Below, piece after piece: positions 9,522 through 57,062 of a DNA stretch of 64,000 nt. Location: positions 43,504,384 through 43,568,383 of the forward strand of contig NC_037093.1 in the NCBI RefSeq assembly GCF_002994745.2, read 5' to 3'. Made by a program: the position numbers and the translations under genes. The stretch comes from Rosa chinensis. Its lineage: Eukaryota; Streptophyta; Magnoliopsida; Rosales; Rosaceae. Below the pieces are notes generated by a model. That model was not told the origin of the DNA and did no database searches. It was given only the letters and a program-made list of their open reading frames with translations. The first letter of the stretch is position 1, and each line of letters begins with the position of its first letter.

Positions 9522-9534
9522 GTCTACCCTCCTT
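9522..9534 (-). other. Tekay polypurine tract
   Basis: Read on the minus strand, the bases just before the 3' LTR are AAGGAGGGTAGAC. This matches the position and style of a chromovirus polypurine tract priming plus-strand synthesis. Confidence 0.75.
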
Positions 9535-10504: not shown

Positions 10505-11002
10505 TGTACCTACATGTGCCAGAACGAGCATAATTAGCTATAATGAACCACGCTCATTGTACCGCCAGAGGTACCAACTCCCACCAAAGGAGCGACCTGC
10601 GAAGGCACGGCCAGGCAGGCTACCGTTTGAGCCCTGGACCGCCCCCAGATCACCGCTGACGCGCCGCGTCAAGATAGCATCAGAAGCTCCAGACGCTGGG
10701 AATCGAAGCACATCAGTCCCACATCGGAAACAAGAAGAAGATCAGCCTCTTCCTTAACTATAAAAGGTTCTCTCCTCTCTCCTCATTAATTACGCAATTA
10801 CTACTCATTTATTGTTATGCTGCGCATATACAGTGACTGACTTAGGCATCGGAGAAGTGAAGATCGCCCAACGCGGTCTCCCTCTGACGTCCTGTCTATC
10901 GTGTTGCAGCAAACAGGAATCACCTAATCCTAGGAGTAGGGGTCCGCCCGCCGGACCCGCGTTAAGCAAGGAATCGGGTACCGCCGGACTTGAGCATTAA
11001 CA
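10505..11002 (+). repeat. Tat 5' LTR
   Basis: Starts TGTACCTACATG and ends GAGCATTAACA. The partner is 21839-22336, of identical length. It contains a TATA box and a pyrimidine-rich leader after it. The small ORF at 10812-11000 lies inside the LTR and is not a gene. Confidence 0.9.
10759..10766 (+). promoter_or_regulatory. TATA box of Tat 5' LTR
   Basis: TATAAAAG followed by a CT-rich stretch, in the middle of the LTR. It is conserved at 22093-22100 in the 3' LTR. Likely core promoter for the element's RNA. Confidence 0.7.
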
Positions 11003-20650: not shown

Positions 20651-21258
20651 GTCGAAGTCACCGCTGAGCGAAACCCCGCTAGCGGAACTCTTCACTTGTC
20701 TCTTTCCGAGTGTCGAAGTCACCGCTGAGCGAAAACTCGCTAGCGGAACTTCTCACTTATCTCTTTCCAAGTGTCGAAGTCACCGCTGAGCGAAACCCTG
20801 CTAGCGGTAACTTCTCACTTGTCTCCTTCCAAGTATCGAAGTCACCGCTGAGCGAAACCCCGCTAGCAGAACTCTTCACTTGTCTCTTTCCGAGTGTCGA
20901 AGTCACCGCTGAGCGAAAACTCGCTAGCGGAACTTCTCGCTTGTCTCTTTCCAAGTGTCGAAGTCACCGCTGAGCGAAACCCCGCTAGCGGTAACTTCTC
21001 ACTTGTCTCCTTCCAAGTATCGAAGTCACCGCTGAGCGAAACCCCGCTAGCGGAACTCTTCACTTGTCTCTTTCCGAGTGTCGAAGTCACCGCTGAGCGA
21101 AAACTCGCTAGCGGAACTTCTCACTTGTCTCTTTCCGAGTGTCGAAGTCACCGCTGAGCGAAACCCCGCTAGCGGTAACTTCTCACTTGTCTCCTTCCAA
21201 GTGTCGAAGTCACCGCTGAGCGAATCCCCGCTAGCAAAACTTCCACTTGTCAATTTGC
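20651..21258 (+). repeat. 61/61/62-bp tandem array with 184-bp higher-order unit
   Basis: Ten monomers start at 20651, 20712, 20773, 20835, 20896, 20957, 21019, 21080, 21141 and 21203. Each begins GTCGAAGTCACCGCTGAGCG or ATCGAAGTCACCGC. Three variants alternate in fixed order (one with CGAGT at its end, one with AAAACTCGCT, one with the extra base in GCGGTAACT), so the true period is 184 bp. Open frames across it are by-products of the repeat. Tandem arrays near the polypurine tract are common in Tat elements. Confidence 0.85.
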
Positions 21259-21821
21259 AAGGGGCCACCTCAGCTATACGTGGCACTGCCGGCATAACCC
21301 CCTCCATCTTGCAAACCCCGTGCGTTGCTGAGGGCAACTTCGCTCAGTAACCACCGCCGAACACGTCTACGCGACGCTGTTTCCTGCTACATCCAGCGGG
21401 GGGTATCCGCCAGAGGCCAATCCCGAGGCTACGCCTCACTCTGACAACGACCGCCACGGGGCGTTACGGTCAGATCGTCCTTACGGGACACGGGGACTTG
21501 TCAACAGTCTACGACGACCCTGATCAGGTGCGTTGACCCCCGTCACTTGGGTACTAAGATTGGGCTAGCTACCCAACACCCTCTGCTTCGCGCAGTTCCC
21601 CCTTAACAAACAATTTGCCGACCATCCGGAGGTCCGTCTGGACTAGGGAGTGGGGGACTCCCTGGCGGGCCTAGTAGGGGCCCACCCGGAAGGGTATAAA
21701 GCGTTCGCTCAGTAAATCCATGGTTAACAACGCACTGATGCTAATTATGCTGTTGCAAGTCTAGCGGAAGTAACGCTTCACACCGCCGATCAACTCCCCA
21801 ACCAAGATTGCCCTCCTTGAC
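21259..21821. other. Tat non-coding tail
   Basis: GC-rich, no ORF. It contains a TATA-like GGTATAAAGC near 21695 and several short purine-rich words before the polypurine tract. Confidence 0.5.
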
Positions 21822-21838: not shown

Positions 21839-22336
21839 TGTACCTACATGTGCCAGAACGAGCATAATTAGCTATAATGAACCACGCTTATTGTACCGCC
21901 AGAGGTACCAACTCCCACCAAAGGAGCGACATGCGAAGGCACGGCCCGGCAGGCTACCGCTTGAGCCCTGGACCGCCCCCAGATCACCGCTGACACGCCG
22001 CATCAAGATAGCATCAGAAGCTCCAGACGCTGGGAATCGAAGCACATCAGTCCCACATCGGAAACAAGAAGAAGATCAGCCTCTTCCTCAACTATAAAAG
22101 GTTCTCTCCTCTCTCCTCATTAATTACGCAATTACTACTCATTTATTGTTATGCTGCGCATATACAGTGACTGACTTAGGCATCGGAGAAGTGAAGACCG
22201 CCCAACGCGGTCTCCCTCTGACGTCCTGTCTATCGTGTTGCAGCAAACAGGAATCACCTAATCCTAGGAGTAGGGGTCCGCCCGCCGGACCCGCGTTAAG
22301 CAAGGAATCGTCTACCACCGGACTTGAGCATTAACA
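21839..22336 (+). repeat. Tat 3' LTR
   Basis: 498 bp, collinear with 10505-11002, 11 substitutions by eye, no indels. TATA box TATAAAAG at 22093-22100. Confidence 0.9.
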
Positions 22337-23639: not shown

Positions 23640-25097
23640 TCACTTCTCGAATTTCGCAAACAACTTCTTTTCTCTCAAAACCTGCAGTACAATCCGCAGA
23701 TGCTTATCATGATCCTCCAACGTCTTGGAATAAATCAAGATATCATCCACGAACACCACCACGAACTTATCCAAGTACGGACTGAACATACGGTTCATCA
23801 AGTCCATAAAGGCAGCAGGTGCATTGGTTAGACCAAAAGGCATGACAACAAACTCAAAGTGTCCATACCTAGTCCTAAAAGCAGTTTTAGGAACATCATC
23901 ATCTTTCACCCTCAACTGGTGATATCCAGATCTCAAATCAATCTTTGAGGATACAGTAGCTTCCTTAAGCTGGTCGAACAAGTCATCAATCCTAGGTAAA
24001 GGGTACCTATTCTTGATCATCACCTTGTTCAATTGCCGATAATCCACACACAACCTTAGTGAACCATCCTTCTTCTTTGCAAACACCACAGGTGCACCCC
24101 AAGGAGAAGTACTAGCTCTAATGAACCCTTGTTCAAGTAAACCATCTATCTGCTCCTTCAACTCTTTAAGTTCAGTTGGTGCCATCCGAAAAGGTGCCAT
24201 GGATACAGGTGCAGTACCTGGTATCACATCGATAGCAAAATCCACTACCCTCCTTGGAGGTAACCCCGGTATTTCCTGAAATATATCACTGTACTCGGAA
24301 ACCACGGCAATCTCTGCCATAACCGCAGCACAACTCACCGACTCTACATGAGCTAAGAATCCTGCCCACAAAGCAGTATCTGACCTAAGACACCGATAAC
24401 GAAACACTGGCTGTCCAGGTATATGAAATGACACTACCATTTCAAAGCAATCAATCATAGCATGATTTGGCCTCAGCCAATCAATTCCCAAAATAACATC
24501 ATACGTATGATCTGTTAGCAAAATCAAAGTTGCAGAAAGCTCCCTACCACCGATCACAATCGGACATGCATCACAAAACATATTAAGCTCAAGGGAAACA
24601 CCAAGTGGGGAAATAACACACAAGGGTCTAGCAAGAGGTCTAGGAGTCAATCCTAACATATCAACCACAGAGCTAGATATGAAAGAGTGGGACGCTCCCG
24701 TATCAAACAACACTCTAGCAAAGAAATCAAATAAGGATAAGGTACCTTCCACTCCGGTATTCTGCTGACCAATAGCAAACACCCTAGCCTGCCCCTGAGG
24801 CTGTTGCCTCTGCTGGTTCCCTTGTCCCCTACCCTGCTGGGTACAATCCCTTGAGAAGTGCCCCGTCTGGCCACAGGTGAAGCATGCCAAGTTCTTCGGT
24901 TTCGTGTAAGCTCGAGCAACATGGCCCATCTCATTGCAATTGAAACACTTCGGGTTCGCCACCGGCCTATTAGGTGCAACCCTAGCAGGTGCAGCTACAG
25001 CCCTAGCTGGTGCCTGCTGATTTGTCCTCTGTCTCTTCCAGAATCCACCTCGATTCCCAAATGTTTTACTGCTCCCCGCAGTTGCCTTTCCATTTCT
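23640..25097 (-). pseudogene. Tekay CCHC knuckles, protease and reverse transcriptase
   Basis: In frame with gag upstream but separated from it by a TAA. In order: two zinc knuckles, the first damaged ([14 protein letters not shown], last Cys replaced by Tyr) and the second intact ([14 protein letters not shown]); retropepsin active site [15 protein letters not shown] with [44 protein letters not shown] and the catalytic [10 protein letters not shown]. Ends at the TGA at 23640. Confidence 0.85.
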
Positions 25098-26201: not shown

Positions 26202-28924
26202 TGTCACGCCCCTGATTTTACACACATGAAAATCGACATATATAATCCCATAATTATACATGCGTGAATGTTCAGTCATCAATACAAATACCTAGAACAT
26301 CTTTCCTTTAAAATAAGTACATGCTGATGCCCTGAATCCATCCGAGTTAATATACACTCGCTCCATAGTGTTATATATTACACAAATTTACAAATTAAAT
26401 TGCCATCACAAAATAAAGCATAAATGCTCCTCAGAGCTTACTACATAGCGGAAGTCATAACAATGGCAAAGCCAACAAAATTTGCTTCCTACCCGTTCAG
26501 CTGCCAACAAACTACCTCAGCTTCAGCCATGATTTTCCTGACCTGCAGGATTAACCCCTACACCAAAAGAATGGTGCACCGGGTTTCCAAACAACAAAAC
26601 CCGGTAAGCTTATGAAAGCTCGTATGAGTAACTCATGAACATCAATCAACAACTCACACACATCAGCTAAAGGAAACCATGCAACCATGATTCCTTCTAA
26701 CACTCCATAACCTTTCCATCTAAAGGACGACATAAATCACCGCTGTGATAATGTTCTATTTGCTAACTTAACCATCAAGAAGCAAATCAAGTCTCATCTA
26801 GACAATAAAAGAAGAATACTCAAGGAATTCTACTTTAACTACATACTTATGAGTCTCCAGCAACCTCGACCGTTACTCCCATAATCTATAATGGCAGACA
26901 GACTATTGCTCTATTAAAATCGTAACCACTCGTCCGACTACGGACGTGATTACCTATTTCCTGCCTTGGTCACCATCTGCGACCTGTCACCATCTGCGAC
27001 ATGTGGTTTCAGACCCCGTCTGGTCTCAAAATCAACATTAAGGTCACCATCTGTGCTCTGTCACCATCTGTGACACATGATCTTCAGACCCCGTCTGGTC
27101 ATGAAATCAAACATCAAGGTCACCGTCTGCAACCTGTCACCATCTGTGCTCTGTCACCATCTGTGATATGTAATCTTCTTAGACCCTATCTGGTCTTAAA
27201 GTTAAACGTTAAGTAAGTCGCAACCGACCTAAAAACGTTACAACATCTAGCTTCGGCTTTCCTAACCCTTGCTCACCATCTGTGACTCTTGGTACAAGGA
27301 CCAATACATTTAAAATGAGTCACGCTTGACTCAAAAAAGTAACATCAAGCTCAATACTTTTCAAACAATAGAAAACATCTTTTTCCACAATACTGTTCCT
27401 GAAAAGTCACATTCAACAATAATATGAACACCATCATGCATATTATTATTCATCACAATCATCCGCAAGGATATATATATTTCACGTAAATATATATATA
27501 CGTAGACATTCGCTCAGGAATGCCTACTAATACCAACTATAGTTTGCAGTTAAATGATTAACGCCAAAACAATAATGGTAATTCTGTTCATAAAGAACCT
27601 TGTGAGATTACTCACCTCGAACTCCTGCTGCGTCTTCAATAAAGCACAAAGCCGCCAATTCACAAATAATCTTCCACTGTACTTCGTCAAGTACCTAATC
27701 ACATACGGTTCCAACTTAGTGACGATTCACATTTGATTTAAGTTTGAAACCCCTGTTTTGAACTAAAATCCCCAAAGTAGCGCCAATCAAGGCAAAACCA
27801 CATCCGAGACCTCCCAAAGTCTCCGGAATACGTCCACGATCGATGTGACCAAACCACAAGTCGATCGGACGCTCGAATCCACACAGATCGAATAAATCGA
27901 TCGGTATGAAACTGTAAAAATCATAACAATTTCATACGAACTCCAAAATTTGCATATTATATATCGAAACGCTCGTATCAACGACTAGAACATATATAAT
28001 ACCACAAACAGTCCCTTACATGGCCGGAACACTGCCGGAACGCCGCCACAGGAGGTGGCGCACCGCCGCCGGCCAAAACTCAATATTTCACAAAACTCCC
28101 AACATCAAAAAGCTTCATCTAAGCATGCTTGTGAATTCTCATAACTAGCTCGAAGTCAGAAAACAAGCATAAAGGGTCGAAAACTACCTCACAAGCTTTG
28201 GATTATTGCTCAAACTGAGTTGAACCGATTTCCACGTAAATCGATCAAAAAAAACACCATAGATCGATCAGGAAGCCTATTCTGAACTCAACCAAGGAAG
28301 CATGAAGCCATGAAGTCGCCAGAGTTGTGTTTTCCGGCCGGGTCCGAAAACGCTAACTGCACCGCCTTGCAGCGCCGCACACGGTCTATCTCTTCGCTAG
28401 AGAACACCACAGGGATGACCGGACGGAGGAGGCGAACCAGCTGACCAAGTTTCACGGCCAGAGACCGCCGCAGTTCACCGGAAAAGCTGGGTCGGGTCGG
28501 GACAGTCGAAAAACTTCGACTCTGAAGGTGCAGACGAGAGAGAAGAGAGAGAGAAAAAAAAGCTTCCGGAAAAGGAAAGTGGGAATTATGAAAATAATTT
28601 CTGATTTTCCACTTTTATACTAAAACGGAAACTTCTTCCGCTAGCCATAAATTTCTCATACGAACTCCGATTGATGCGTTCCGCATGTCCACGAACTCGT
28701 ATCGATGCGCTCTACAACTTTTGTGAAGGAAGTTTTCCGAGAATCCCAACATATAAAAAGTCAAACTTCACACGACCCCCTAAACTGTGAAATTCGAATA
28801 ATTATACGTACAAAAACTATTCCACTTCACATACAACCTACGAATAAAGTACAATAACAAATATTCGTACAACTGGTCCATTATTAATTACCAAAATTAA
28901 ATAACAGAAAACCAGGTCATCACA
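26202..28924 (-). repeat. Tekay 5' LTR
   Basis: 2723 bp, TG..CA bounded, collinear with 6815-9521. It carries an 18-bp extra stretch near 26610 (AAGCTTATGAAAGCTCGT region) that is partly a duplication or was lost from the partner. GTTGT target duplication follows at 28925-28929. Confidence 0.9.
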
Positions 28925-28929
28925 GTTGT

Positions 28930-33297: not shown

Positions 33298-34025
33298 AGT
33301 TTATATACATGACCTCCCCATTTAATACAAGAATAAAGTTAGAAACCATCTAATATAAATTTCCCTTAAATAAATTGTAATTAAATGGGTGAGGAACCAT
33401 ATAATTTAGAATTTCGGAATCAATAGCATTAAATGTTTTAAAATAGATTGGTTTACTCCCACTTTTTAGTTAATTTTCTTTTTTGTTGTAACAGTTATGA
33501 TTAGTCAATTTATTATCTAATATAAAACATTAAAACATCACAAATAGAAAACTTTGTAAATGTTATTTTTTTGGCCCCTTCAATGACAACTTTGTACTTC
33601 TACAACTCTACGAAACTACTGACATAGTTTTGGTTGAATGTTCAACTCAAAATTTTATACTTGATTAATATGGTGTTTGGTGGATAAGAACTCAAATAAT
33701 ACAAAACCTATTTTGAGGCATCTATTTGAAGGGAATAATAATAAATCTTTATGAATTTTCCATTAACTAACACAGGTAATCAATATGGTCATTTATAAAA
33801 CGTCAATATACTAATATATATTAATCATATAAAATAGTAGTCTTAATATAGTCAAATAATAGGATATTTCATGATTTTTGAGATTAAGGATATTTTAGGC
33901 ATTTTGGGTTGTGTAGTTAGTATAATATTAAAATAAGAAATTAAATGGGTGATGTATTGAGTACTGTGTATTAAGTAGTTAATGATGTGTGTATTTAAAA
34001 CTTGTCCTCAGTTTCATCAATATAT

Positions 34026-34032
<7 letters not shown>
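33298..34032. other. no gene seen
   Basis: AT-rich sequence without convincing ORFs or element ends. Confidence 0.4.

Positions 34033-34068
<36 letters not shown>
34033..34068. repeat. (AT)n microsatellite
   Basis: About 18 uninterrupted AT units. Confidence 0.9.
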
Positions 34069-34070
<2 letters not shown>

Positions 34071-34141
34071 CTTTCATATCATTTGTTATATAATTCTAAT
34101 TAAAGTCGCACTCTTACATGCTACAAAAAGCACGACGAAAC

Positions 34142-35086
34142 TGGAAAAAAAATGAACAACTCTTTCGAGAGGAGGAGAGCACTGCTAGGTTTTCTTGGTG
34201 GCGCTCTGGCAATTCTAGTTGGAGGGATTGGACATTCTGATCTCTTTGATCAACCTAATGAGGATGGCGGCAGTGGAGAAATCCTTTTGCGTCATGAGTG
34301 GGCTTCGACCAACCATGTTCGTGCAGCGATCGAGGACGGAGTTTGGGCTCTAGCTTCTAGTGCACGACCATGGGAGGTCGGCGGATGAGGGTTTCCTGTC
34401 GTTTCTGGGCGGGGACAACATGCGTGCAGCATGGATTTTTGAGGTGGCGGCGGTGCTCAGCCAAACTGGATTTGGATGGGATCTCGAATCCAGATTTTCA
34501 ATACTGGCTGGGCAAATCTGATGGCAGATGGTGGTGTCTGTGGGTGACGCGACCCGGGTTCAGGTCTTCATGCTTGGCAAGGCGGGTTGCAAGTGGCGGT
34601 CAAGAGATGCGGCAGTGGTTTGGGAGATCCTTGACATCAGTTGGTTTGGAGGTCAGGCTGCCGGTGTGTCGGAGATGATAGTGGGCTGCTGTGGCCGGGT
34701 ATCCATAGCAATTAGAACCATACTGGGCCTAGGGCTTGGGCTTCCCATCCTTTTGGCATACTAAGGCTAACTGGAACTTTTCGGATGCTTGAATAGTGGT
34801 TTTGGGACATGTCTCTTGGCTAGGTTTGGTGTTGTTTTGCTCTTTGCAACGGCACCAAGCTCGACTTTTGTTGAGATATGATGCCAGAGGTTGTCACTTC
34901 ATTTGTGCCTCTTTGATTTCTCATGGATGATGTTGAATGTTGTTTGTATGTTCTTCATTGCTTTTAAAAAGGTTGAATTATTTAGGTAATGATTTTTTTG
35001 TCAGCCTTACGTGGGTAAATCATTATGTATGATTCCGCTGATCAATAAAAGAGTTGTCATTTTTCATCAAAAAAAAAAAAAAAAAA
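34142..35086 (+). mobile_element. LINE-like poly(A) retroposon copy C
   Basis: About 945 bp, ending in a long A-run (35069-35086) preceded by GATCAATAAAAGAG. It has the same layout as copies A and B: GC-rich ORF-like start (34152-34388, 34370-34678), GGGCCTAGGGCTTGGGCTT middle, T-rich 3' end. Candidate target duplication is degraded (GCACGACGAAACTGG near 34130, GCACAACAAAGTGG near 35095), with differences at CpG sites. No RT motif. Confidence 0.6.
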
Positions 35087-35408
35087 GCTCTAGAGCACAA
35101 CAAAGTGGTAGTGTTAAATCTTTGCATGCAAGACGTCGTCTCTTCTACCCTCCGTACGTCAATTTTGATGGAGGTATTACCGTATTAAATTGCTAACAGA
35201 ATCAAAGTTGAGATATGAAAACGCAAAAAATTGATACTTGGGTATGAAACTAATAAATAACCTTATAGTTCGGGGAGTTTTTGTAATTGATCATGAAAAA
35301 CTCCATTTGATTAAAATTAAGTTTTGAAGTCAAGCAAATCCTCATTAATTTGACAGGAAGGCCCAAAAGATCTGCCATGATTTGAGGTTGGTGATGCTAA
35401 TCATACAT
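35087..35408. other. no gene seen
   Basis: AT-rich host or old repeat sequence. Confidence 0.4.
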
Positions 35409-37148
35409 GGCCCAGTTTGGTATTGGTTTTGGAGCCTACTTTTGGTCCAAAAGTGCTTCTAGAGGAAAGTTAGGCTGTTTGGTAAACTCCAAAATTGTTG
35501 TTTTTGGGTGGAAGTGTTTCTGTGGCAGCAGGAAATCAGAAGCTACTAAAATGGCTTTTGCGGAATGCGGCTAAAAACACGGAACTATTAATGAAGTTAA
35601 GCGAACTACCTATTTTGTCCTCGTCCTTTTCTAAAATTTACACTGAACTCAGTCTTTTTTCTTCATCTGTGTGAGGCAAAACCATCGCATTCTCCTCCTC
35701 CTCCTCCTCCTCCTCTCTTTGCCATCAAATTCTTGAGCATCATTCATTTTCCTCAGAAGAAATCGAGAGAGGGCCTCTACTTCTTCTCCTTCTCTCTCTG
35801 CTGTCACTGAAAATCGGAGGAGCATCATTCTTTTCATTAGAAACTTGAGAGAGAGCTTCTATTTCTGATTGGCTTCTCCTCGATCCTTTCTTCTCTATGG
35901 TCATCAATCAGCCTCATCATAAACTAGATAAAGCAGCGTCGTCTCCAGATTCTAAAAGGTAAAAACTTTTACCAACTCTTTTACTGAATTATTTGGTCTG
36001 ATTTTAGATTTGATTTTTATCAAACATCAAATCTATTTGGTTTGGGATTGTTGTTCTTTTTTTTTTCCATTACCAATTCTGATTCTAAAAAGGATTGGGT
36101 GGGTAAAAATCCCTTTCTTGCATTGAGTTGCGACCTGTGGGAAAGCTAGTAAGTTTCTGGGTCCAGCTTCAAAGTTTTAGATAGGAATCAATTTTCATTC
36201 TAGTAGCTTAGTTGTTTTAATTTTTCTCTTGCTTTCACACTTAATTACCATTATGCTTTCAAAATGCACCTGGAAGTGTCCTTCTTCATGTTCTTGACAT
36301 AATTACTATGCAATTGATTGTAGCTATTGCATACATAGTTCTGAAGTTGTTGCCGGAATCAGGCAACTCGGATTTAGTCTTATGTTGCTGGGTTGGCTAT
36401 TAAACATAAGTAGTTATGTATCTTGTGCATTTGGCTTGTATTTTGTTGCTGCATTATGAAATCTATTTCCTTCCTATCGGACTTTGCGGCATAGAATTTT
36501 ATGAGCAAATGCAATCTTAAAATATGTGCTGTCATTTTGTGCACCTGAGGCACATGAAAACATCAAGCAAAGACATGTTATATGGTTTGTGGTTTTGGGA
36601 TGGTAGGTCAAGCAAAGACATCTAGTGTAAAAAGTAGTTATGTATAGGCTGACATAGGTTAAAAGGGTAGAATTCCTCCCTAATGATAAAACCAGTTTGA
36701 TCTTTTGTGTGAAAAGCTTTTTTCATAATTTTTAACTAGTGTACAAGAACAATAACAATACACGAGACAACTTATATTTTTATAGGGTTACATGATTAAA
36801 AAGCAAAATTATATATTTTAGTGGCATTTTTAGTATTTATGATCATTTTGGTAATTATATACAGCCACAGCGCTTTTCACTTGCAACTTACCAAACACTA
36901 AGAAATTATTTTTCGTTCTCACAGCACTTCTAAAAACAGTTTGTCAAATACTTAGCTGCTTCTTCTCACAGCAAAATCAGAAGTGCTTCCTCTCACAGCA
37001 AGTTTGGAAGTGTTTCTTCTCACAATACTTTTAAAAATAGTTTGCCAAACACTTAACTGCTTCTTCTCTCAGCAAAATCAGAAGTGTTTCCTCTCACAGT
37101 AAGTTCAGAAGTGTTTCTTCTCACAGCACATCAATCCCAAACTGAGCC
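35409..37148. mobile_element. non-autonomous TIR element, 1.74 kb
   Basis: The left end GGCCCAGTTTGGTATTGG is the inverse of the right end, which read on the minus strand is GGCTCAGTTTGGGATTGA. The subterminal right side holds two copies of a 101-bp repeat (from 36916 and 37017) with words CACAGCAAAATCAGAAGTG. A CTC/CCT microsatellite lies near 35693-35716. No transposase ORF, and I could not fix the target duplication. hAT-like or Mutator-like are both possible. Confidence 0.55.
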
Positions 37149-37491
37149 GTAAATGAAAGCAATAATTTGCAGGGCCTGATCCATAAAATGATGATCGATA
37201 TGCCAAACTTATTTGTCAGCCGCAGCGTGCTCATATATTCTTCAATTTTCTTCACATTTTGCTAATCAAGATTATATGTGGTAAGCTGAAGAAGGACGTT
37301 TTATCTTCTTTTTTATTTATTTATTTTTATTATTTTATTATTTTATTTTTAGGAGAAGGCTAGGAATAGCAGGCTAGCAGCTCCCTATCCTTGAAAATGG
37401 AAATTGATAAAAAAACCAAACCGGCCTAACAAGCCAGCGAAAAAAGAACTATGAAAATGGAAATTGAGAAAGACCCAATTGGCCAATAACA
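37149..37491. other. no gene seen; AT-rich low complexity
   Basis: Includes a (TTTTA)n-like stretch at 37309-37350. Confidence 0.4.
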
Positions 37492-37507
37492 TGAGAAACT
37501 TTCATTC

Positions 37508-38526
37508 ATTTTTTTTTTTTGAATAGAAATTGATATTATTAAAATCAATAGCTGGCAAACAACCAATAGCTATAGTTTATCTGCACTTACAACAAGATAG
37601 CTGACAAGAAAATCTGGAACCCTATTCTAAGCAAAACAAACTCATTACAAGTCGATGATAAGCTTGCTATAATTAGCAAACTTATAAACAAAGAAACTCC
37701 TGTCTTCTAGGGCAAAATCATTCTCTAGTCTCCCATTAGCCAATCACGTAATTGTGGTACCAACAGAAAACTACTTCCTTGCCAACAAATAGGAGCAACT
37801 CCTTATCCATAAGCCACTTGAAAGCCAATCTTATTCCACATAATTACCAACTTCCGCAGAAGTTATGACCCGAAATGATTAGTCGACCTAGACCATACAA
37901 AAACCCAAATGCCCAAGGAGGTCCACTACTTAGGTCAGGCCTACCCTCACCACTGAGTGATAGCTGAGGCCTACTGGGGTACTGGCCCATAACGTAGAGC
38001 CGAACAACTCAATTTTGAGCCTAGAACAAAAGGCTCAAGCTAAACTTGAGCAAAGGAACCAGAAGCCCATGCCCGCTACTGCCAAGTAGCCGCCGTCGCC
38101 ACCTCCAAGCTTTTCGGAAGCCTGACTTTCCGGCAACCCATCAAGTCCGGGTCTGTAAGTGTTGCTACTCCGGCCTGCCTTCCCCTCTTTATGCCAGAAG
38201 GAAAAGCTACTGCCCGCCGATGCTTGACAACAACCCTCCCTCCGACGCTACTTCTCGCCCCGACGTCGCTTCAATCAACAAAGCCACTTACCCCATCTGT
38301 CTGCCCGCCGCGTTTTACTTTGATCCTCCTCCACTGCAAGACATTAAACACCTACCCACAGATCACGATCTGCACTCACACTCGTACTCAGCGATCTCTA
38401 CCAATCAACTACTGCCACCAATCGGAGCCCAAACGCCCAGGACCCTCGACGAGGATCCTTTCTGGTACTACAGCGCTTGGGATCCGCTGCCTCGCTTTGC
38501 TCAGAAACCTTAGGTACGGGCTCTGC
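37508..38526 (-). mobile_element. LINE-like poly(A) retroposon copy E
   Basis: 1019 bp on the minus strand with a poly(T) tract at its left edge (37510-37520). An exact 16-bp duplication TGAGAAACTTTCATTC flanks it (37492-37507, 38527-38542). It has the same layout as copies A-D. The GC-rich part (38046-38529) is open on the plus strand only by composition. No RT. Confidence 0.7.
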
Positions 38527-38566
38527 TGAGAAACTTTCATTCCTAAAACTTAGTCAATGACAATAC

Positions 38567-38729
38567 TGTTATAAAGAAGAGAGAATATGGAGAGAGAATA
38601 GTAGGGAGGAAGTAGAAGTGTATCATTCAGTCTCATTAGCCTCCTTTATATAGAGGTAGGGTTTACAACAAAGTACATAACTAATGAGTATTTACATGGA
38701 CATCCACATAGATAATAATATTTACAACA
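38567..38729 (-). repeat. 3' LTR of the copia-like element
   Basis: 163 bp, boundaries TGTTATAAAG..TTTACAACA on the plus strand, matching 44278-44440. Confidence 0.85.
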
Positions 38730-38743
38730 CTCCCCCTTGGATG
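38730..38743 (-). other. polypurine tract of the copia-like element
   Basis: The minus strand reads CATCCAAGGGGGAG immediately before the LTR start TGTTGTAAAT, a typical copia arrangement. Confidence 0.75.
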
Positions 38744-38756
38744 TCCATCAATGAAT

Positions 38757-38945
38757 GATGGTATTGGACGCGCTTATTGTTGCCTCGTTAAAAACCTTGC
38801 CAGGTAACAAAAACCCAGTGGGACAAAAATAACCCTGGTCGAAGGACAAAAAGAGCACAACGCGCATATGTCCTAGGTAGCATGCTTCTGGATGCTCCCC
38901 CTGATGAGAATCTCCCCCTGACTGTTGCAAGCCTCATTTATGTAT
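38757..38945 (-). other. copia 3' terminal module
   Basis: The minus strand contains CAGGGGGAGATTCTCATC, a second CAGGGGGAG, a pyrimidine-rich stretch, and GTCCCACTGGGTTTTTG with AAGGTTTTTAACGAGGC. Closely similar sequence is found at 56597-56745 next to a copia RNase H remnant. Confidence 0.65.
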
Positions 38946-39239
38946 GTGATAAGCTACATGTACCATATATAGTAGATTGATGTGTCTATCACCGAAGTGA
39001 GACCATGTGTGCTTTGCATATAGGGGCTCATCACAAAATTTCATACCTGCAAAGGTTAAGCAATACCAACAAAACTAGATGATTTTCAATAAGCCTTACC
39101 TCATATGATAAGGTTAGAAACAATTTCATATGCTCAAATTCATACACAAAGTAAGAGCTAAACAATATAAAGAAATTGACACATTTAACTTTGTATAGTT
39201 TAAAACATTGAAAAATCATCATGGCATACCTAGCGATAC

Positions 39240-42200
39240 TCATCAATATCTTTGCGTATTGATATGTCTCATAAGCTCTTCAAGAGCTCTAAATAATTCA
39301 TAACTTTGCGAAAGTTAGAATATGTTGCAACATTATAATCATAATTCGAATTCGATAGTAGTCTCGTCATAGTACTCATTAAGGCAATTTAGATCTCGTT
39401 GACTAGAACGAAATGAGTACATATGAGCTAGCTTTAGACTCTTTGATTCCATGAGTGAGCTTCAGGCTCTTTCAACCTTTCATGGACTTGCATTTGAATC
39501 ATTCATGTATTTGAATCCCTTGAGGATTTGATAAGAAATACACTTATTATGACACTTTGCTTTTGAGATTTTGCTTTTAGCAATGTGTCTTCATAATATA
39601 CGATGACAAAGTGCCATAAATCTCTCGTCAATATAACAGCTATATGTAACACTGTACTTATAGAAAATTGTCATTCATATAAGGGAAGATATTCATAATC
39701 TCATGTCTCTATAAATAGACATTGTGTCATAGTGATTTATCTTCACTTTTGATAAATACCTTTTTGTACCATGTAGGGTTAAAGGTCCGAGTATTTCATC
39801 ACGTTTCAAATATTCAATTTCATTGGAATTGCCTCTTTCCAATTTGGCCAATAATATACTTTGTCGACATTCATGGTGAAACGTGGTATAGCATTCATAC
39901 AGCCCTTAAAGATTTTTGGTAGCTACCAAATGTAAATTATCATCGATGATTAACAATCATAGATCACACACATTCTTATATGCATGCATTAGCTATAATA
40001 AGCTTATTGATATTGGGTACCCATGCCACTTCTGGGGCATACATTGTCGCTTCTAGGACAATCATCTCTCATAAATTATGTAGCGAATGTGGATCTTTTT
40101 ACTTATAATCTCATATAGAGCATTATAGGGCTTGTATAATCTTCCCTGTTTTGGGAGTTTAAAACTTTAGACCTGGTGGATACAATCCACACAAATTCAC
40201 GCCGTTATTCAAATGACAGTAGTCTTTCCTCCCCCTAACGGCGGGAAGACTGTCTTATTATGACCATGCTCAAAAGATGCATTCAAAAATCTATCACTTT
40301 CTTTGGAGTGAAGGTGTACATTGGCTAGTGGCGAACCCAAACCAAGTTTTAGGTCAAAAACGTTTTGTCCATTAGCATCAACCATATTGATTTATTATTG
40401 TATCACTAAGACATCATTTCATAATGGCGTACTTACACCCTTTATATGTGTAGCCATATTAGGAGTTGTGATATGTTTAATAACATTCTCTTCAGGAGAA
40501 CCATGTCAATTGGATACACTTGCATCCCACAAATCAAATGGAGTCTACATTGTTTGTATTAATACGGTTGGTCTCAAGGACTTTAACCCAAGCAGATGCC
40601 TTTGCATTTAGCATAAAATTTTGTCACTTTCTTTTATCAATTCACTAGTTTTGATATTTCTCAAAGTCAAAATGAGACGGTGGATAAATATCTCACACCA
40701 ATTCATATCGTTCTTTAGGAACAATATTTCTCCCCCTCATTGCAGGAGGATTGTCTCATTAAAGTGACAACTCGCAAATATGTAAATAAACAATTTGCTT
40801 GTGAGTAAGATTAGCAATCATCAAACTTGTATGTGATTCCATGCAACATGGTGGACAAAAGATGACGTAACGGGTCATGCCAAAATAGTGTATTTGGTTC
40901 AAGGAACTTCAGGTTCATGACATCATATGCCTTAATTTACTGCAGAAAATTCGATACAGTATATATCTGATGACATAAAGTCTTCTCCAACCATATAGTA
41001 AGCAATTAATGCAACAATATTTCAAATTCGGTAACATGATAGTAGCTCATTTGGAGCCATACATCAAGATCTACAGCACTTGATATGGTTGTTACCTTAG
41101 CTTCAGTAAACATTAACTATGAAATACTGATAATTGGAATGGACCAACTTCATTTTGAACTACTGGCCAAAATGATATACTCGAAAATTTCGAGTTAAAG
41201 ACTACAATCCATAAGAACAAGTAACTTTATCATGTGGAGAACCTCAAGTTCTGTGTCACATATAAATGTGTAGCCATAAAGAGGAGGGACTTCAGGCCCT
41301 CATATAATTGGAGATCCAAGAAACTTGAGGTTTCAATTTTTTTTCAATTTATAACAACCTCTTAAGGAACATCAGGTTCCTAGATAATCGGATTAAGAAA
41401 CATTTAGTTTCAATGGGAACTCAAAAGGATACAATAAATCTATGGAGTAGCACAATAGTGCTTTCAAGTTGCTTATTGTAAGCAAAAGACATCAGGGATG
41501 TGTGATGATCTCAATGTTCTTACTAGTCAATGCAATTTAATTTGACCAGTGCCCTTTCGAAATTGGCTTGATAATCATCCACCATATAGTGTACCATAGG
41601 TGACACACACCCAATTTACAATTTCCTCACATATGTGGATGTTAGGACAATATTTACATTGACTCCTGATTTTTCTCTTGCCATGATCCACTTTTGGTGG
41701 CATTTCATGGTATAGCCATGTCAATCGGCTTTCTTACTATACAATGAGATCTATGAGACGGGGAGATTATACATCTCTAGTAATATTGGAGGCACAGAAT
41801 GCAAGGGGACAATAATGTGTGCTCTGCTGGAGCCATCAATCAGATATGTAAGATCTGAGATGATTGTTATATTAGCCTCATAAGCATAAGCTTTAATAAT
41901 ATTTTCTGGACACCATGCATAAAATTGCATTGCCTGAAAATCACTCAAAACATAAGTTTGAAGATGACACAAATCAAATTTGTAAGAATTGAACGGTAGA
42001 TCTCATACGATATACACGAAGCTTCTGGTCCGTGTTATACAGTTAAAACATGACGTTCAATTATTGTATTGATGTCTGATGTAGATTAACATCAAATGCA
42101 TTTTGAACTTCTGGCCAAAATAATATACTCAAAATATCGAGTTTAAACTTTATGACCATAACTTATGAGTGAAGGACTTTAGATGGTCATCTAGTTAGTT

Positions 42201-43390
42201 TGATCATTGAGGAACTTCAAGTCCTCATGTAATTAAGGATCAAGGAACTACAGGTTCTGATCTCTTTTAATTACAAAATCCACGATCACAAATTTGGGGT
42301 ATACTCATACTCATTCGTCATAGACCAACGGTTAAATATATGCTTACTTTTAAATTGGTGTCAAAATAATCCCCTCAAAGCTTCAGGTTTGAGGTTGACC
42401 CAGATTAAAACTTTATGATAAATTGTCTATATATCCACTCGATACTTAAGGCTCGAGTCTGCACAATTAGAACTTTAGGTTCTAAGGTGGAATGCTTTAA
42501 GCAGACATAAAGAAGAATGTATCAATCGACATATGAAAATTACTCGAAACTTCTAGTTCGAGTTGACATAAAGTCAAATAAACTACGAATGAATTATATG
42601 TGTAATCGAAGCTTCAGGTTCGAATATTTTTTCTATGAACTGCAAGTTCTAAGATTTCGTAATTTGAACTTCGGGTTCAAATAAATTTGGTGCTCGAAAC
42701 TTCAGGCTCGAGGAAACTAAAGTGAATCTTCAAGTTCACTTTTAACTAATTTATATTTTATACTCAAAGCTTCGGGTTTAAGTTTTACTGTTAGAACTTC
42801 AAGTTTTGCTATGAAATTTTGAACTTCTGGTTCAAAAATATTACATTCGAAATTCATATGTTCGAGGTATAGGACTGCTGCTCCGTATAAGTAACAAAAA
42901 AAAAAAAAATTTAAAGATAAGTACTGTAACGAAAGTACATAACAAAATAGGAAAATTGCAGGGAAGAAAAATAAATAGATAAACCATGCAATAAAATTAA
43001 CTATGGAAACTTCTGGTTCCATTAATGAAGAAATTACACAGAACTTCTTGTCTGCTTAACTTCACAAAATGATAATTTTTTTTCTCTCCTCTAATCACAC
43101 AAGTACATAATTTTATCTTGTGGAGAACGTACTTAGCTTCTAGCTTTAACCAAGTGTTCAAAATTGAACTTCAGATTCACATTGTCGTACGGAGGAGGGA
43201 ACCCCAATACTAAAATAATTTGAGGAACTTCCGGCCCTCCTATAATTATTGGGGATTAAAAATATGTGAGTTCATATATCCAATTATATAACTCTAAGGA
43301 TCTTCTGGCCCTCGTAATTGTATAAATTTATGAGACTTCATATCACAATTTTTCCACTACACAATCTTTGAGGAACTTCAGGCCCTCGTG
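39240..43390. repeat. array of dozens of short perfect hairpins, many with a shared loop
   Basis: Non-coding interior of the copia-like element. Perfect stems of 5-9 bp closing loops of 3-10 bases occur almost back to back, many nested. About thirty have a loop close to RCTTCWGG (plus strand; CCWGAAGY in the element sense) while the stem sequence differs each time. Examples: CCTCAAA/TTTGAGG at 42373-42394, ACTCGAA/TTCGAGT at 42542-42563, ATTTGAAC/GTTCAAAT at 42662-42682, AGTGAA/TTCACT at 42721-42740, ATGGAA/TTCCAT at 43003-43022, ATTGTC/GACAAT at 40043-40062. Nested sets include GGTAAC..GTTACC around ATCAAG/CTTGAT (41030-41096) and GTACTCATT/AATGAGTAC around TCGTT/AACGA (39372-39420). Function unknown. 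Confidence 0.8.
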
Positions 43391-44277
43391 TAATCATATA
43401 AAGAAAATATTTTGATCGCATTGAATTTACAATGGTCATTGAAATCCGTCTATGAGCAATAAAATCATATCATACGTCCTTACCTTTTTAGCATACTTAT
43501 GCACATAATCGTAGGATTGTATAACCTGGATATCAAAAAAATATTGATCCGCCTTTGGGAGTTACTGATCCTGCCATAAATTGAATCAACATAGATAGTG
43601 GTCATCACTCTCATCAAGTCAAGATTGCTTCTCATATTAATCAATTCATAAATACATGTGCAGATGACAACATAAGGCATATACTAATACTTGTAATCAT
43701 GAAATATATGACGAATTAGGATTGATGCCTAACGACAATTGAGGGAAACACACAAAAAAATCTTATGAGTGTATACTGACAAAAAAAAACCCCAAAAAAA
43801 TGCTATTAAATAGACAAGTAAAAACTAATGCCTCTATTGCACCTTATGGGATAATACGTTGGGTTTTGGTTGCAAAACCAAAAATAAAGGAGAGAGGCAT
43901 GATTATTGACAAAAAAAATTGAGATTGTCAGAAAGGAAAACGGGTATGATTCTATTTGCGTGATCAACCAAAACTTTCAGCAATTATACTCATATATGAG
44001 AAAAAGAACATATGTATATCAGTATATAAAGCAGGAATCGATGGCACCGTAATGATTATATATAAGATTAAAGCATAGATCATAGATCATGAAATAAACT
44101 CATGAAATAAAGCAGGAATCGATGGCACCTTAAGAAATAAACTGATATGCATAAATGACATAGATCATGAATAAACTCATAGATCATAAGTTATAGTTAA
44201 TAGCAACAACGTTGCACCATAAACTCGTAGATCATCATAGAGTTTTCAAAAAATAATAGCAGAGTGTGCTGATAACG
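43391..44277 (-). other. 5' internal region of the copia-like element
   Basis: No usable ORF. Next to the right LTR the minus strand reads CGTTATCAGCACACTCTGC, the expected place for a primer site; I cannot assign the tRNA. Confidence 0.5.
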
Positions 44278-44440
44278 TGTTATAAAGAAGAGAGAATATG
44301 GAGAGAGAATAGTAGGGAGGAAGTAGAAGTGTATCATTCAGTCTCATTAGCCTCCTTTATATAGAGGTAGAGTTTACAACAAAGTACATAACTAATAAGT
44401 ATTTACATGGACATCCACATAGATAATAATATTTACAACA
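44278..44440 (-). repeat. 5' LTR of the copia-like element
   Basis: 163 bp. On the minus strand it contains CTATATAAAGGAGG, a plausible TATA box about 90 bases before the LTR end. Confidence 0.85.
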
Positions 44441-44547
44441 AATACTGCTTTTTTTTTCTTTTTCTTTTTTTGACCAAAAAATGTTTTTATTTTGTTTTTT
44501 ATTTGCTTATAATCTACATTATGTGATTATACAGTTGATAGCATCAT

Positions 44548-55254: not shown

Positions 55255-55735
55255 CAAAGTTTGGAAGACATGAGATTCAAACCCCCAACGTCTCTCACAA
55301 CAACTCAAATCCCCACCACTAGAGCACGAAATGTCCTCAATTTAACGTCTCCAAACTTCATATTTATAGACTTTTTAAGAGATACCGAATAATTATACAA
55401 AATATAAAACTTGGAAGACTCATTCGAACCCCCAATCTCTCTCACAACTCCTCAACTCCCGAACACTGGAGCACGAACTGTCCCGAATATAGTACCTCCA
55501 AACTTTGTATTTATACTCTTTTTAGGCGATACCGAATAATTAAACAAAATATATAAACATTCCAACACATGAGATTCGAGCACCCAACCTCTTTCACAAC
55601 AGCTCGTGCAACAGCTCTACTCCCCACCACTGGAGCACGAGCTGCCGGTGTTATAAACTCTACAAACTTTATATTTATACTATTTATATATTTATACTAT
55701 TCTTAGGTGTTATAAACTCTACAAACTTTATAAAC
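55255..55735 (+). repeat. diverged tandem repeat, about 150-bp unit
   Basis: Three copies, recognised by GATTCAAACCCCCAAC (55272), ATTCGAACCCCCAAT (55424) and GATTCGAGCACCCAAC (55571), each followed by CTCTCACAAC-type words, GGAGCACGA, and a TTTATACT end. Confidence 0.65.
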
Positions 55736-56778
55736 TCTACAAGCACTCCCATGATCGTCCGTAGTCTTGATCCTGAAAAGGATCCTCTTCGGTCGAAGGA
55801 TGATGACGAAGATGCACTAGGGGCAGAAATGCCCTAGTTAACTACAATAAGCGCATTATTGTACTTAACTCAATGCACAAGACCGGACATCTCATTTGCA
55901 GTGAACTTGTTAGCTAGATATAGCTTCGCGCCAACGCGACGCCATTGGATTGGTGTAAAAGATATCTTTTGATACTTGAGATGTACGATTGATATGGGCT
56001 TGTTCTATCCCTACAGAAAGATGATGGATTCGGACCCATCACACACCAGGAACGCCGCCAACACTGGCCTGCGTGCATCTTCCCCATCCCAAAACGACAT
56101 GTGTTTTGGAAGGTTTTGCTGATATTGGGTATCTCTTTGACCCATACAAAGGTCATTCCCAAACTGGTTAAGTGTTCACCATGGGTAAAGACCTTGATAT
56201 CTTCGAGGTCTACATAACAGACCCTAGTTGCTATATCTTCGAACAATGCAGAGATCGTTGCTCTTCATGAAGTGGTTCATGAATGTATATGGATTGGATC
56301 CATAATTACGCATGTTCAAAAAAAAATTGTGGTTTGAAGTCTACCACAGATGAGCCTACGAGCATTTAGAATAATGCTGCTTGTTTTGAACAAATGAAGC
56401 AAGGCTACATAAAAAACGACAACACCAAGGATAATCAGCAACAACAGACACTCCTCAAGATCAAAGTGAACTAGGTTCAATCTGCGGACAGTGTGGCAGG
56501 CTTGGTCACTAAGTCATTGCCTCAATTCCACTTTCGAGAAACATGTTGATAGCATCGTTTGCGGAAGTTATCCGAACTCCCATGACCGTTGTCATCAGGG
56601 GGAGATGCAGACATCAGGGGGAGATGTTTACATGTATGGTCTTGAAACGTGAAGGGTGTGTTGTGCTCTTTTTCCCCTTCGACCGAGGTTATTTTTGTCC
56701 CACTGGGTTTTTGTTACTCGACAAGGTTTTTAATGAGGCAATGAGAGAAGCACCGCGTTTGGGCAACACAAGGGAGAG
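55736..56778 (+). pseudogene. Ty1/copia RNase H and 3' tail remnant
   Basis: Plus-strand frames give [18 protein letters not shown] and a WIGVKDILRYLR-type block, then DPSHTRNAANTG, later SNNAEIVALHEVVHECIW and EQMKQGYIKNDNTK, all from the copia RNase H domain, with many stops and frameshifts. The non-coding 3' module (CAGGGGGAG twice, GTCCCACTGGGTTTTTG) and a polypurine tract (AAGGGAGAG, 56770-56778) follow. The 5' part of the element is missing. Confidence 0.75.
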
Positions 56779-56982
56779 TGTTCAAGTAAAACCCTAATTT
56801 GTGTTTGGCTCAAACTCTAGGTTACTTGACCTAGTGGTAATAGGGTTTCATTAGAAGAATCTAAAGATTATCTTTTCTTGTATGATTCAGACTCTATACA
56901 TTGTAATCCTCTATATAAAGATGCCCCTTTTATAAATGAGAATACACAGCGATTTCCTCTCAATTTCAGTTTCTCTAAAACA
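56779..56982 (+). repeat. copia LTR
   Basis: About 204 bp, TGTTCAAGTAAAACC..TCTCTAAAACA, with a TATA-like CTATATAAAGATG near 56911. It follows the polypurine tract directly. No partner LTR in the window. Confidence 0.65.
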
Positions 56983-57062
56983 CATTGATTATTTTTAGAT
57001 ATAAAAAAAAAATCAACAATTTATATCACATTACCACAATCATGGGAATGCATTGGATATTT

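Follow-up and report, generated by a model that had tools for sequence, protein, structure and literature searches.

A gene-less LTR retrotransposon of Rosa chinensis with an array of loop-sharing hairpins whose pairing appears to be under selection

Structure and coding status of the element

A long terminal repeat (LTR) element occupies positions 38567-44440 of a 64,000-nt stretch of the Rosa chinensis genome (NCBI RefSeq assembly GCF_002994745.2, contig NC_037093.1, positions 43,504,384 to 43,568,383 of the forward strand; hereafter the window, to whose numbering all coordinates refer). Between its LTRs lies a noncoding interior in which short hairpins follow one another, many of them sharing a loop while each has a stem of its own, and variation among copies of the element supports selection on the pairing of these stems. 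The two LTRs (38567-38729 and 44278-44440) are 163 bp each and 98.8% identical, and direct reading identified a target duplication, AATAC, at both ends of the element, as is characteristic of LTR retrotransposons. Because the polypurine tract sits at 38730-38739, the sense strand of the element is the minus strand. The features of the element are as follows.

38562-38566: target-site duplication AATAC, left (direct reading)
38567-38729, minus strand: 3' LTR, TGTT...AACA, 98.8% identical to the other LTR over 163 bp
38730-38739, minus strand: polypurine tract CAAGGGGGAG adjoining the 3' LTR (clear on direct reading; role assigned from position)
38780-38861, minus strand: 3' block also found in a second LTR-like element (56660-56741; 82 bp, 90%)
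39240-43390, minus strand: noncoding interior with the hairpin chain (stem counts, folding, arm permutation and Pfam scans)
43400-44177, minus strand: 5' leader, in whose place many copies have another leader (copy comparison)
44266-44277, minus strand: presumed primer-binding site CGTTATCAGCAC adjoining the 5' LTR (direct reading; role assigned from position)
44278-44440, minus strand: 5' LTR, 98.8% identical to the other LTR
44441-44445: target-site duplication AATAC, right (direct reading)

All 36 listed interior open pieces of at least 45 amino acids were submitted to a Pfam scan. None reached the cut-off (best E value, 0.0077) and none was gag or pol, in agreement with the coding-free interior of the original prediction, which had been made from the letters of the window; a reading of the interior as a decayed pol was set aside, as no domain was found in these pieces. 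In having a large interior without gag or pol, the element resembles the large retrotransposon derivatives (LARDs). No Rfam family scored above its gathering threshold in 38500-44500, where the single weak match (38849-38924, to the small nucleolar RNA GlsR14; 20.6 bits against a gathering score of 90, E value of 0.17) is most likely due to chance. The putative primer-binding site, CGTTATCAGCAC, looks unlike the usual initiator-Met site. It may correspond to the complement of the anticodon arm of a tRNA-Ile, if inosine is allowed for, in which case the primer could be a fragment of that tRNA.

A recurring loop on changing stems

All 14 hairpins given as examples in the original prediction were recovered as perfect stems, at the predicted position or 1 to 2 nt away from it. 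Two of the 14 lack the loop motif and had been written with stems of 8 bp; with a loop of at least 3 nt, the one at 41179-41195 has a 7-bp stem around a 3-nt loop, and the one at 39915-39930 a 6-bp stem around a 4-nt loop. Individual hairpins and modules are listed below as arm, loop and arm; unless indicated otherwise, they rest on the stem scan and the copies.

38879-38896: AGCAT, loop GCTTCTGG, ATGCT; the 3'-most loop-bearing unit, with 98% of pair cells unchanged in copies
40023-40040: ATGCC, loop ACTTCTGG, GGCAT
40043-40062: ATTGTC, loop GCTTCTAG, GACAAT
41150-41175: TCATTTTG, loop AACTACTGGC, CAAAATGA; a paralogue of 42100-42121 (stem scan and self-comparison)
41284-41301: GAGGG, loop ACTTCAGG, CCCTC
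42100-42121: ATTTTG, loop AACTTCTGGC, CAAAAT
42227-42276, minus strand: nested module with outer stem TGTAATT/AATTACA, middle stem GATC/GATC, inner stem GAAC/GTTC and a 5-nt loop (both-side changes at 6 of 16 pairs)
42373-42394: CCTCAAA, loop GCTTCAGG, TTTGAGG
42467-42485: TTAGAAC, loop TTTAG, GTTCTAA
42542-42563: ACTCGAA, loop ACTTCTAG, TTCGAGT
42606-42623: TCGAA, loop GCTTCAGG, TTCGA
42662-42682: ATTTGAAC, loop TTCGG, GTTCAAAT
42719-42742: AAAGTGAA, loop TCTTCAAG, TTCACTTT
42756-42843, minus strand: three-hairpin block, from an alignment of 39 sequences (two pairs with compensatory changes)
43003-43022: ATGGAA, loop ACTTCTGG, TTCCAT; present too in relatives with diverged surroundings (stem scan and copy comparison)
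43370-43387: GAGG, loop AACTTCAGGC, CCTC; the 5'-most loop-bearing unit in the RNA sense (stem scan and copy comparison)

Exact copies of the loop motif RCTTCWGG number 13 on the plus strand of 38567-44440 and 16 in the whole window, where 7.57 are expected. The core CTTCWGG was found within a perfect stem of at least 4 bp at 14 of its 15 plus-strand positions in the element versus one of seven elsewhere in the window (both strands); at a stem length of at least 5 bp, the fractions were 11 of 15 and 0 of 7. One-mismatch cores on the plus strand lay in stems of at least 5 bp in 12 of 28 cases inside the element versus 6 of 118 outside. Altogether, 33 units with a core of no more than one mismatch and a stem of at least 4 bp were identified in 38879-43387 (14 exact and 19 with one mismatch), close to the thirty or so loop-bearing hairpins first counted, although part of the 19 is expected by chance because 21 of the 118 one-mismatch cores outside the element also reach 4 bp (plus strand). 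Under a narrower choice of register, 11 of the 15 exact cores keep a stem of at least 4 bp.

An unbiased scan of the 47 seven-mers that recur at least five times in the element placed CTTCTGG and CTTCAGG (7 and 8 occurrences) at the top for flanking stem length, with averages of 4.86 and 4.50 bp, respectively, versus a mean of 1.72 bp over the 47. That the stems change from unit to unit and nevertheless remain complementary around the recurring loop, as originally claimed, was borne out when right arms were swapped between units. The 15 exact units had a mean stem of 4.67 bp with their own arms versus 2.00 bp with swapped arms, and the same comparison gave 4.62 versus 2.05 bp for 29 relaxed units and 3.62 versus 1.92 bp for 71 distinct units from the copies; 0 of 2,000 permutations reached the observed value in each of the three sets. 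Swapping had no effect at seven sites outside the element (1.29 versus 1.50 bp). Since arm swapping shortens the stems and the loop seven-mers head the scan, the recurring loop with private stems is real.

Scattered palindromic protein-binding sites at the DNA level, for example, of the heat-shock type (consensus, nGAAnnTTCn), could in principle produce such units. GAA(A)CTTC does occur in many of them, with an A at position -2 in 52 of the 71 distinct units, but the outer arms vary and yet complement their own partners, for which a fixed DNA site has no need, and the ATTGTC/GACAAT and GAGGG/CCCTC units have no GAA before the loop. We consider this explanation very improbable.

Total stem numbers were less informative. 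The shuffled controls proposed in the original prediction revealed an excess of perfect stems of at least 5 bp in 39240-43390 (97 versus 52.2 ± 7.2 in shuffles), yet raw density was also high in the control stretch 34000-38150 (83 versus 46.6, with 28 versus 3.4 at stem lengths of at least 7 bp). For 42300-43400 alone, the numbers were 24 versus 15.2 for stems of at least 5 bp and 6 versus 1.3 for those of at least 7 bp. The excess persisted when 26 motif hairpins were cut out (78 stems versus 47.2; 0 of 300 shuffles). Whichever strand was folded, local folding lay below that of shuffles over the whole of 39500-43000 (z, -1.7 to -5.0). Raw stem density was dropped as proof because long stems are commoner in the control stretch and a z of -2.7 or lower is also reached by 8 of 44 control windows. 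The view that the hairpins reflect chance or the composition of an AT-rich sequence with many short palindromes finds some ground in these control stretches, some of which are equally extreme in raw stem counts and local folding, but the arm permutation, the seven-mer scan and the constraint and covariation tests below make it scarcely credible.

Constraint on pairing among copies

Copies were sought in a 515-Mb assembly of 53 contigs, seven of which measure 50 to 90 Mb, with 42300-43000 as the query. Among the best 40 of 244 candidates, this densest segment was found in at least 40 places, the window included, with 91 to 100% identity over the query; 39 others were fetched, of which 34 span the middle between two anchors. 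The interior is therefore one conserved among dispersed copies, as in LARDs. LTR pairs were 0 to 4.6% apart in the 25 of 40 copies that were scorable. Because no coding domain was found in the 36 open pieces, yet at least 40 places are occupied and LTR pairs differ by 0 to 4.6%, the element moved without proteins of its own and would thus have to use those of a partner, as is assumed for LARDs and for terminal-repeat retrotransposons in miniature (TRIMs) in excerpts of PMC7215508. In three of the fetched sequences (L021, L033 and L038), the middle is just about 59 to 60% identical to that of the window, with the same architecture and other stems; this diverged family was found in at least 25 places, 23 of them full length over the query and 2 interrupted. 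With a query of 501 bases, further relatives extended down to 73% identity, and weaker pieces lay near 63% (best 40 of 208 candidates); ten of these were sampled and four extended.

Some copies are composite. At least two different versions of the 5' leader (43400-44177) are joined to the same array (L010, L023, L022, L036 and L035), which is a sign of recombination between elements. In a mosaic copy (L047:3801-5070), the stretch matching 42086-43410 is diverged at both ends and nearly identical between them, and several hairpins stand as conserved islands amid diverged spacer.

Hairpins were chosen on the window copy, and other stems chosen in the same way served as the control class. The 40 copies were projected on the window copy with insertions dropped, and the counts of variants per site given here and below cover non-CpG columns that hold at least 20 letters. 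Variants shared by at least four copies should mostly mark source lineages, and those confined to a single copy should chiefly result from decay of the inserted element. Shared variants numbered 9 in 280 sites of motif stems, 57 in 591 sites of other stems, 276 in 2,632 sites of spacer and 79 in 811 sites of spacer within 30 nt, such that their per-site density in motif stems is roughly a third of that in other stems or in spacer. The corresponding singletons per site were 0.243, 0.247, 0.324 and 0.306. Fisher tests of shared against singleton variants gave P values for motif stems of 0.004 (versus other stems), 0.012 (versus spacer) and 0.021 (versus near spacer) on the assumption of independent sites; a permutation of hairpin labels, which does not make this assumption, reached the observed depletion in 12 of 5,000 cases (26 versus 56 hairpins) and, within 41100-43100, in 52 of 5,000 (17 versus 25). 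As shared variants are depleted and singletons are not, the stems appear to be kept by the source lineages and lost by inserted copies at the rate of other stems.

Changes on both sides of a stem that preserve pairing were read directly, as in ACTCAAA/TTTGAGT versus ACTCGAA/TTCGAGT and TTTGAAC/GTTCAAA versus TTTAAAC/GTTTAAA. The nested module at 42227-42276 was compared in 14 orthologous and paralogous sequences (13 distinct rows), in which 91.3% of cells pair and pairing-preserving both-side changes occur at 6 of 16 pairs, in 15 cells. Shuffles gave a mean of 6.1 cells, with 0 of 500 reaching 15, and registers slid by one to three columns gave 0 to 3 pairs and 0 to 4 cells; the number of further pair types was not above that of shuffles (393 of 500 as high). 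For the three-hairpin block at 42756-42843, 39 rows were retained after 3 of 42 (L058 to L060, overlapping L056, L057 and L049) were dropped; 97.7% of cells pair (shuffles, 97.4%), and both-side changes occur at 2 of 20 pairs, in three cells, a number found in 0 of 500 shuffles. Module and block were picked after their variation had been seen, and these counts are illustrative; arm permutation and variant depletion are the less selected tests. Together, depletion and compensatory changes indicate a conserved secondary structure, as in LARDs, in a molecule that may be sense RNA, antisense RNA or DNA.

Changing stems that are always complementary had been attributed either to selection on RNA structure or to a copying mechanism that makes palindromes. 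As regards the former, selection on pairing is supported by the depleted shared variants and the compensations, and the comparison of related copies, made for stem halves that mutate independently, did not overturn it. Palindrome-making copying, by hairpin-templated repair or by template switching of reverse transcriptase, would make and correct stems without selection; it could account for changing yet complementary arms, and some units are indeed paralogous duplicates. However, it predicts joint change of the arms at an unreduced rate, whereas the density of shared variants in motif stems is roughly a third of that in other stems and spacer. Single-copy variants are as frequent in motif stems as in other stems, those at pairs are nearly always one-sided (2 of 80 being compensatory), and copies with a G-U in the sense RNA at changing pairs exist. 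We regard such copying as quite improbable.

Mobilisation and comparison with known systems

Our preferred reading, with a probability of about 0.5, is that the LTR element is non-autonomous and LARD-like, that selection maintains its interior as a hairpin chain, and that this chain probably serves mobilisation through the Gag of a partner. In the place of gag-pol there would be about 4 kb of noncoding sequence whose capacity to fold into successive short hairpins is under selection. Further units may have come from duplicated cassettes, each a short hairpin with the same loop (C-CWGAA-G in the sense), through which the loop would have spread, and stems would then have diverged, partly by both-side changes that preserve pairing. 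The molecule under selection would be the sense RNA of the element, whose compact multi-hairpin form could allow trans-mobilisation, with packaging and copying through the Gag of a coding relative. Contacts with Gag would be many, weak and redundant, each hairpin providing one, and it would be by such contacts, or by compaction, that the chain makes a noncoding RNA a good passenger. A Dicer substrate, also raised in the original prediction, would be another candidate function.

Several results weigh against this reading. At the three loci fetched from a search with the leader, no autonomous coding partner was found (L062, L063 and L064). These loci are all outside the best 40 copies. The array is retained from about 42343 onwards in L063, its right end from about 42750 in L062 and the leader side alone in L064, and each locus runs into unrelated sequence beyond the matching part. 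In motif stems, both-side changes from the window to L038, L021 and L033 were pairing rather than nonpairing at 2:1, 3:1 and 4:1 (wobble-like in 2, 1 and 1), and the reverse comparison gave 1:1, 2:0 and 4:1; these unselected two-family counts are small, and the three sequences are near relatives whose alignment is partly ambiguous in the middle region. Other stems, from the window to the same three, gave 9, 9 and 6 pairing versus 15, 15 and 11 nonpairing both-side changes. Shared pair variants were G-U in the sense RNA in 19 cases and in the antisense in 13, with 21 and 24 for singletons, and units with one internal mismatch comprised 34 of sense type, 20 of antisense type and 41 with other mismatches. 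A choice of strand by G-U asymmetry was given up, as these counts do not settle it and sense is not clearly favoured over antisense.

The loop also departs from what was expected of it. It had been taken as the constant part, but within the family, loops are not clearly more conserved than spacer, whereas stems are: the ratio of shared to single variants is 0.34 in loops, 0.23 in the 7-nt core and 0.35 in spacer. The stem is the conserved part at each unit, and the loop is the part that recurs between units. Such drift of the loop at nearly the rate of spacer weakens recognition of a fixed loop. Long loopless stems are conserved too, with one shared variant in 80 sites for the six loopless hairpins with stems of at least 7 bp, and the loop therefore does not account for all of the conservation.

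These points bear on an alternative in which the structure itself is selected rather than any binding, either as a compact RNA or as one that resists small-RNA pairing, nucleases or unwanted translation, and in which the common loop mostly reflects cassette ancestry. In its favour are the conservation of stems but not clearly of loops, that of long loopless stems, and folding below shuffles along the interior. Against it stands the finding that loop-bearing hairpins with short stems (5 bp or less) are conserved, with 2 shared variants in 111 sites (7 in 169 for longer stems), while no such conservation is seen in the 40 loopless hairpins whose stems measure 5 bp (43 in 391), although most of the latter are expected by chance; in addition, the two loop seven-mers, which occur 7 and 8 times, have better stems than all others among the 47 recurrent seven-mers. 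Cassette duplication together with tolerance in a redundant array could reconcile loop drift with packaging through Gag; selection on structure alone, which we consider somewhat unlikely, could equally do so.

Among LARDs, Sukkula of the Triticeae likewise combines LTRs with a large noncoding interior, but its LTRs are approximately 4.4 kb, compared with 163 bp here. We know of no loop-sharing hairpin array with covarying stems from any LARD. No array of this kind was found in a search of titles and abstract beginnings of the open-licence literature, and the two matches to the letters of the element in papers were both confined to one 14-mer. LARDs with conserved RNA structure are already described in excerpts of PMC7215508; what is new here is the array of hairpins sharing a loop, together with the counts of covariation. 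Cassandra and other TRIMs are plant LTR elements that, according to the same excerpts, are non-autonomous and have conserved folds predicted for their RNA; in contrast to the element studied here, with 5.5 kb between its LTRs (38730-44277), they are almost without an interior, which places it outside the TRIMs. The Ale-lineage Copia elements of Rosaceae, with TGTT/AACA subfamilies, also have short LTRs (152 to 266 bp), and Ale-derived families without coding sequence have a primer-binding site matching Ale elements (excerpts of PMC5659011). The likeness is one of these features; the families described there either encode gag-pol or belong to the TRIMs, and neither "hairpin" nor "secondary structure" occurs in the main text of PMC5659011.

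Viral dispersed packaging signals comprise many stem-loops whose stems differ between sites, and the array shares with them a common loop on varying stems. In hepatitis B virus, enterovirus E and satellite tobacco necrosis virus (STNV), multiple RNA sites contact the coat protein, and the stem-loops of hepatitis B virus carry a recognition motif in their loops (excerpts of PMC7612645, PMC7793301 and PMC3593212). Those signals belong to viral genomes with coat-protein data, whereas the present array is known from sequence, and they differ from it in that its loop is less conserved than the stem at each unit: loop columns vary like spacer, and the 7-nt core slightly less. By analogy, a multivalent array of some 30 loop-sharing RNA hairpins in a gene-less element might serve as a ticket into the Gag particles of another element, a retrotransposon counterpart of these signals, which we put forward as a doubtful and rather unlikely proposal. 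A conserved 20-mer of the element had no match in viral contigs.

To our knowledge, it is an open question by what means the proteins of other elements recognise noncoding LTR elements. The family described here is present in many copies, some of them young; its hairpin unit recurs and is separable, and natural variation provides evidence that the pairing is selected, which makes loop and stem testable apart. The family also offers a concrete case, with compensatory changes counted, for the claim that LARDs have conserved RNA structure.

Other repeats were also noted in the window. A second LTR-like element at 55700-57000, in the opposite orientation, contains the 82 bp (90%) of the 3' block; its portion at 56000-56499 likewise folds below shuffles (z, -3.0 and -4.2) and has several hairpins by eye, with just one weak CTTCWGG-type hairpin listed nearby (55778, one mismatch). 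Elsewhere in the window, repeats of 2.7 kb (6815-9523 and 26202-28926; 97.7%) enclose Retrotrans_gag and RVT_1 matches on the plus strand and a protease/RVT_1 match on the minus strand (23640-24962), and 6815-28926 is probably a large LTR element with nested insertions. An inner repeat (10505-11002 and 21839-22336) and a tandem repeat of about 60 bp near 20651-21261 were also identified.

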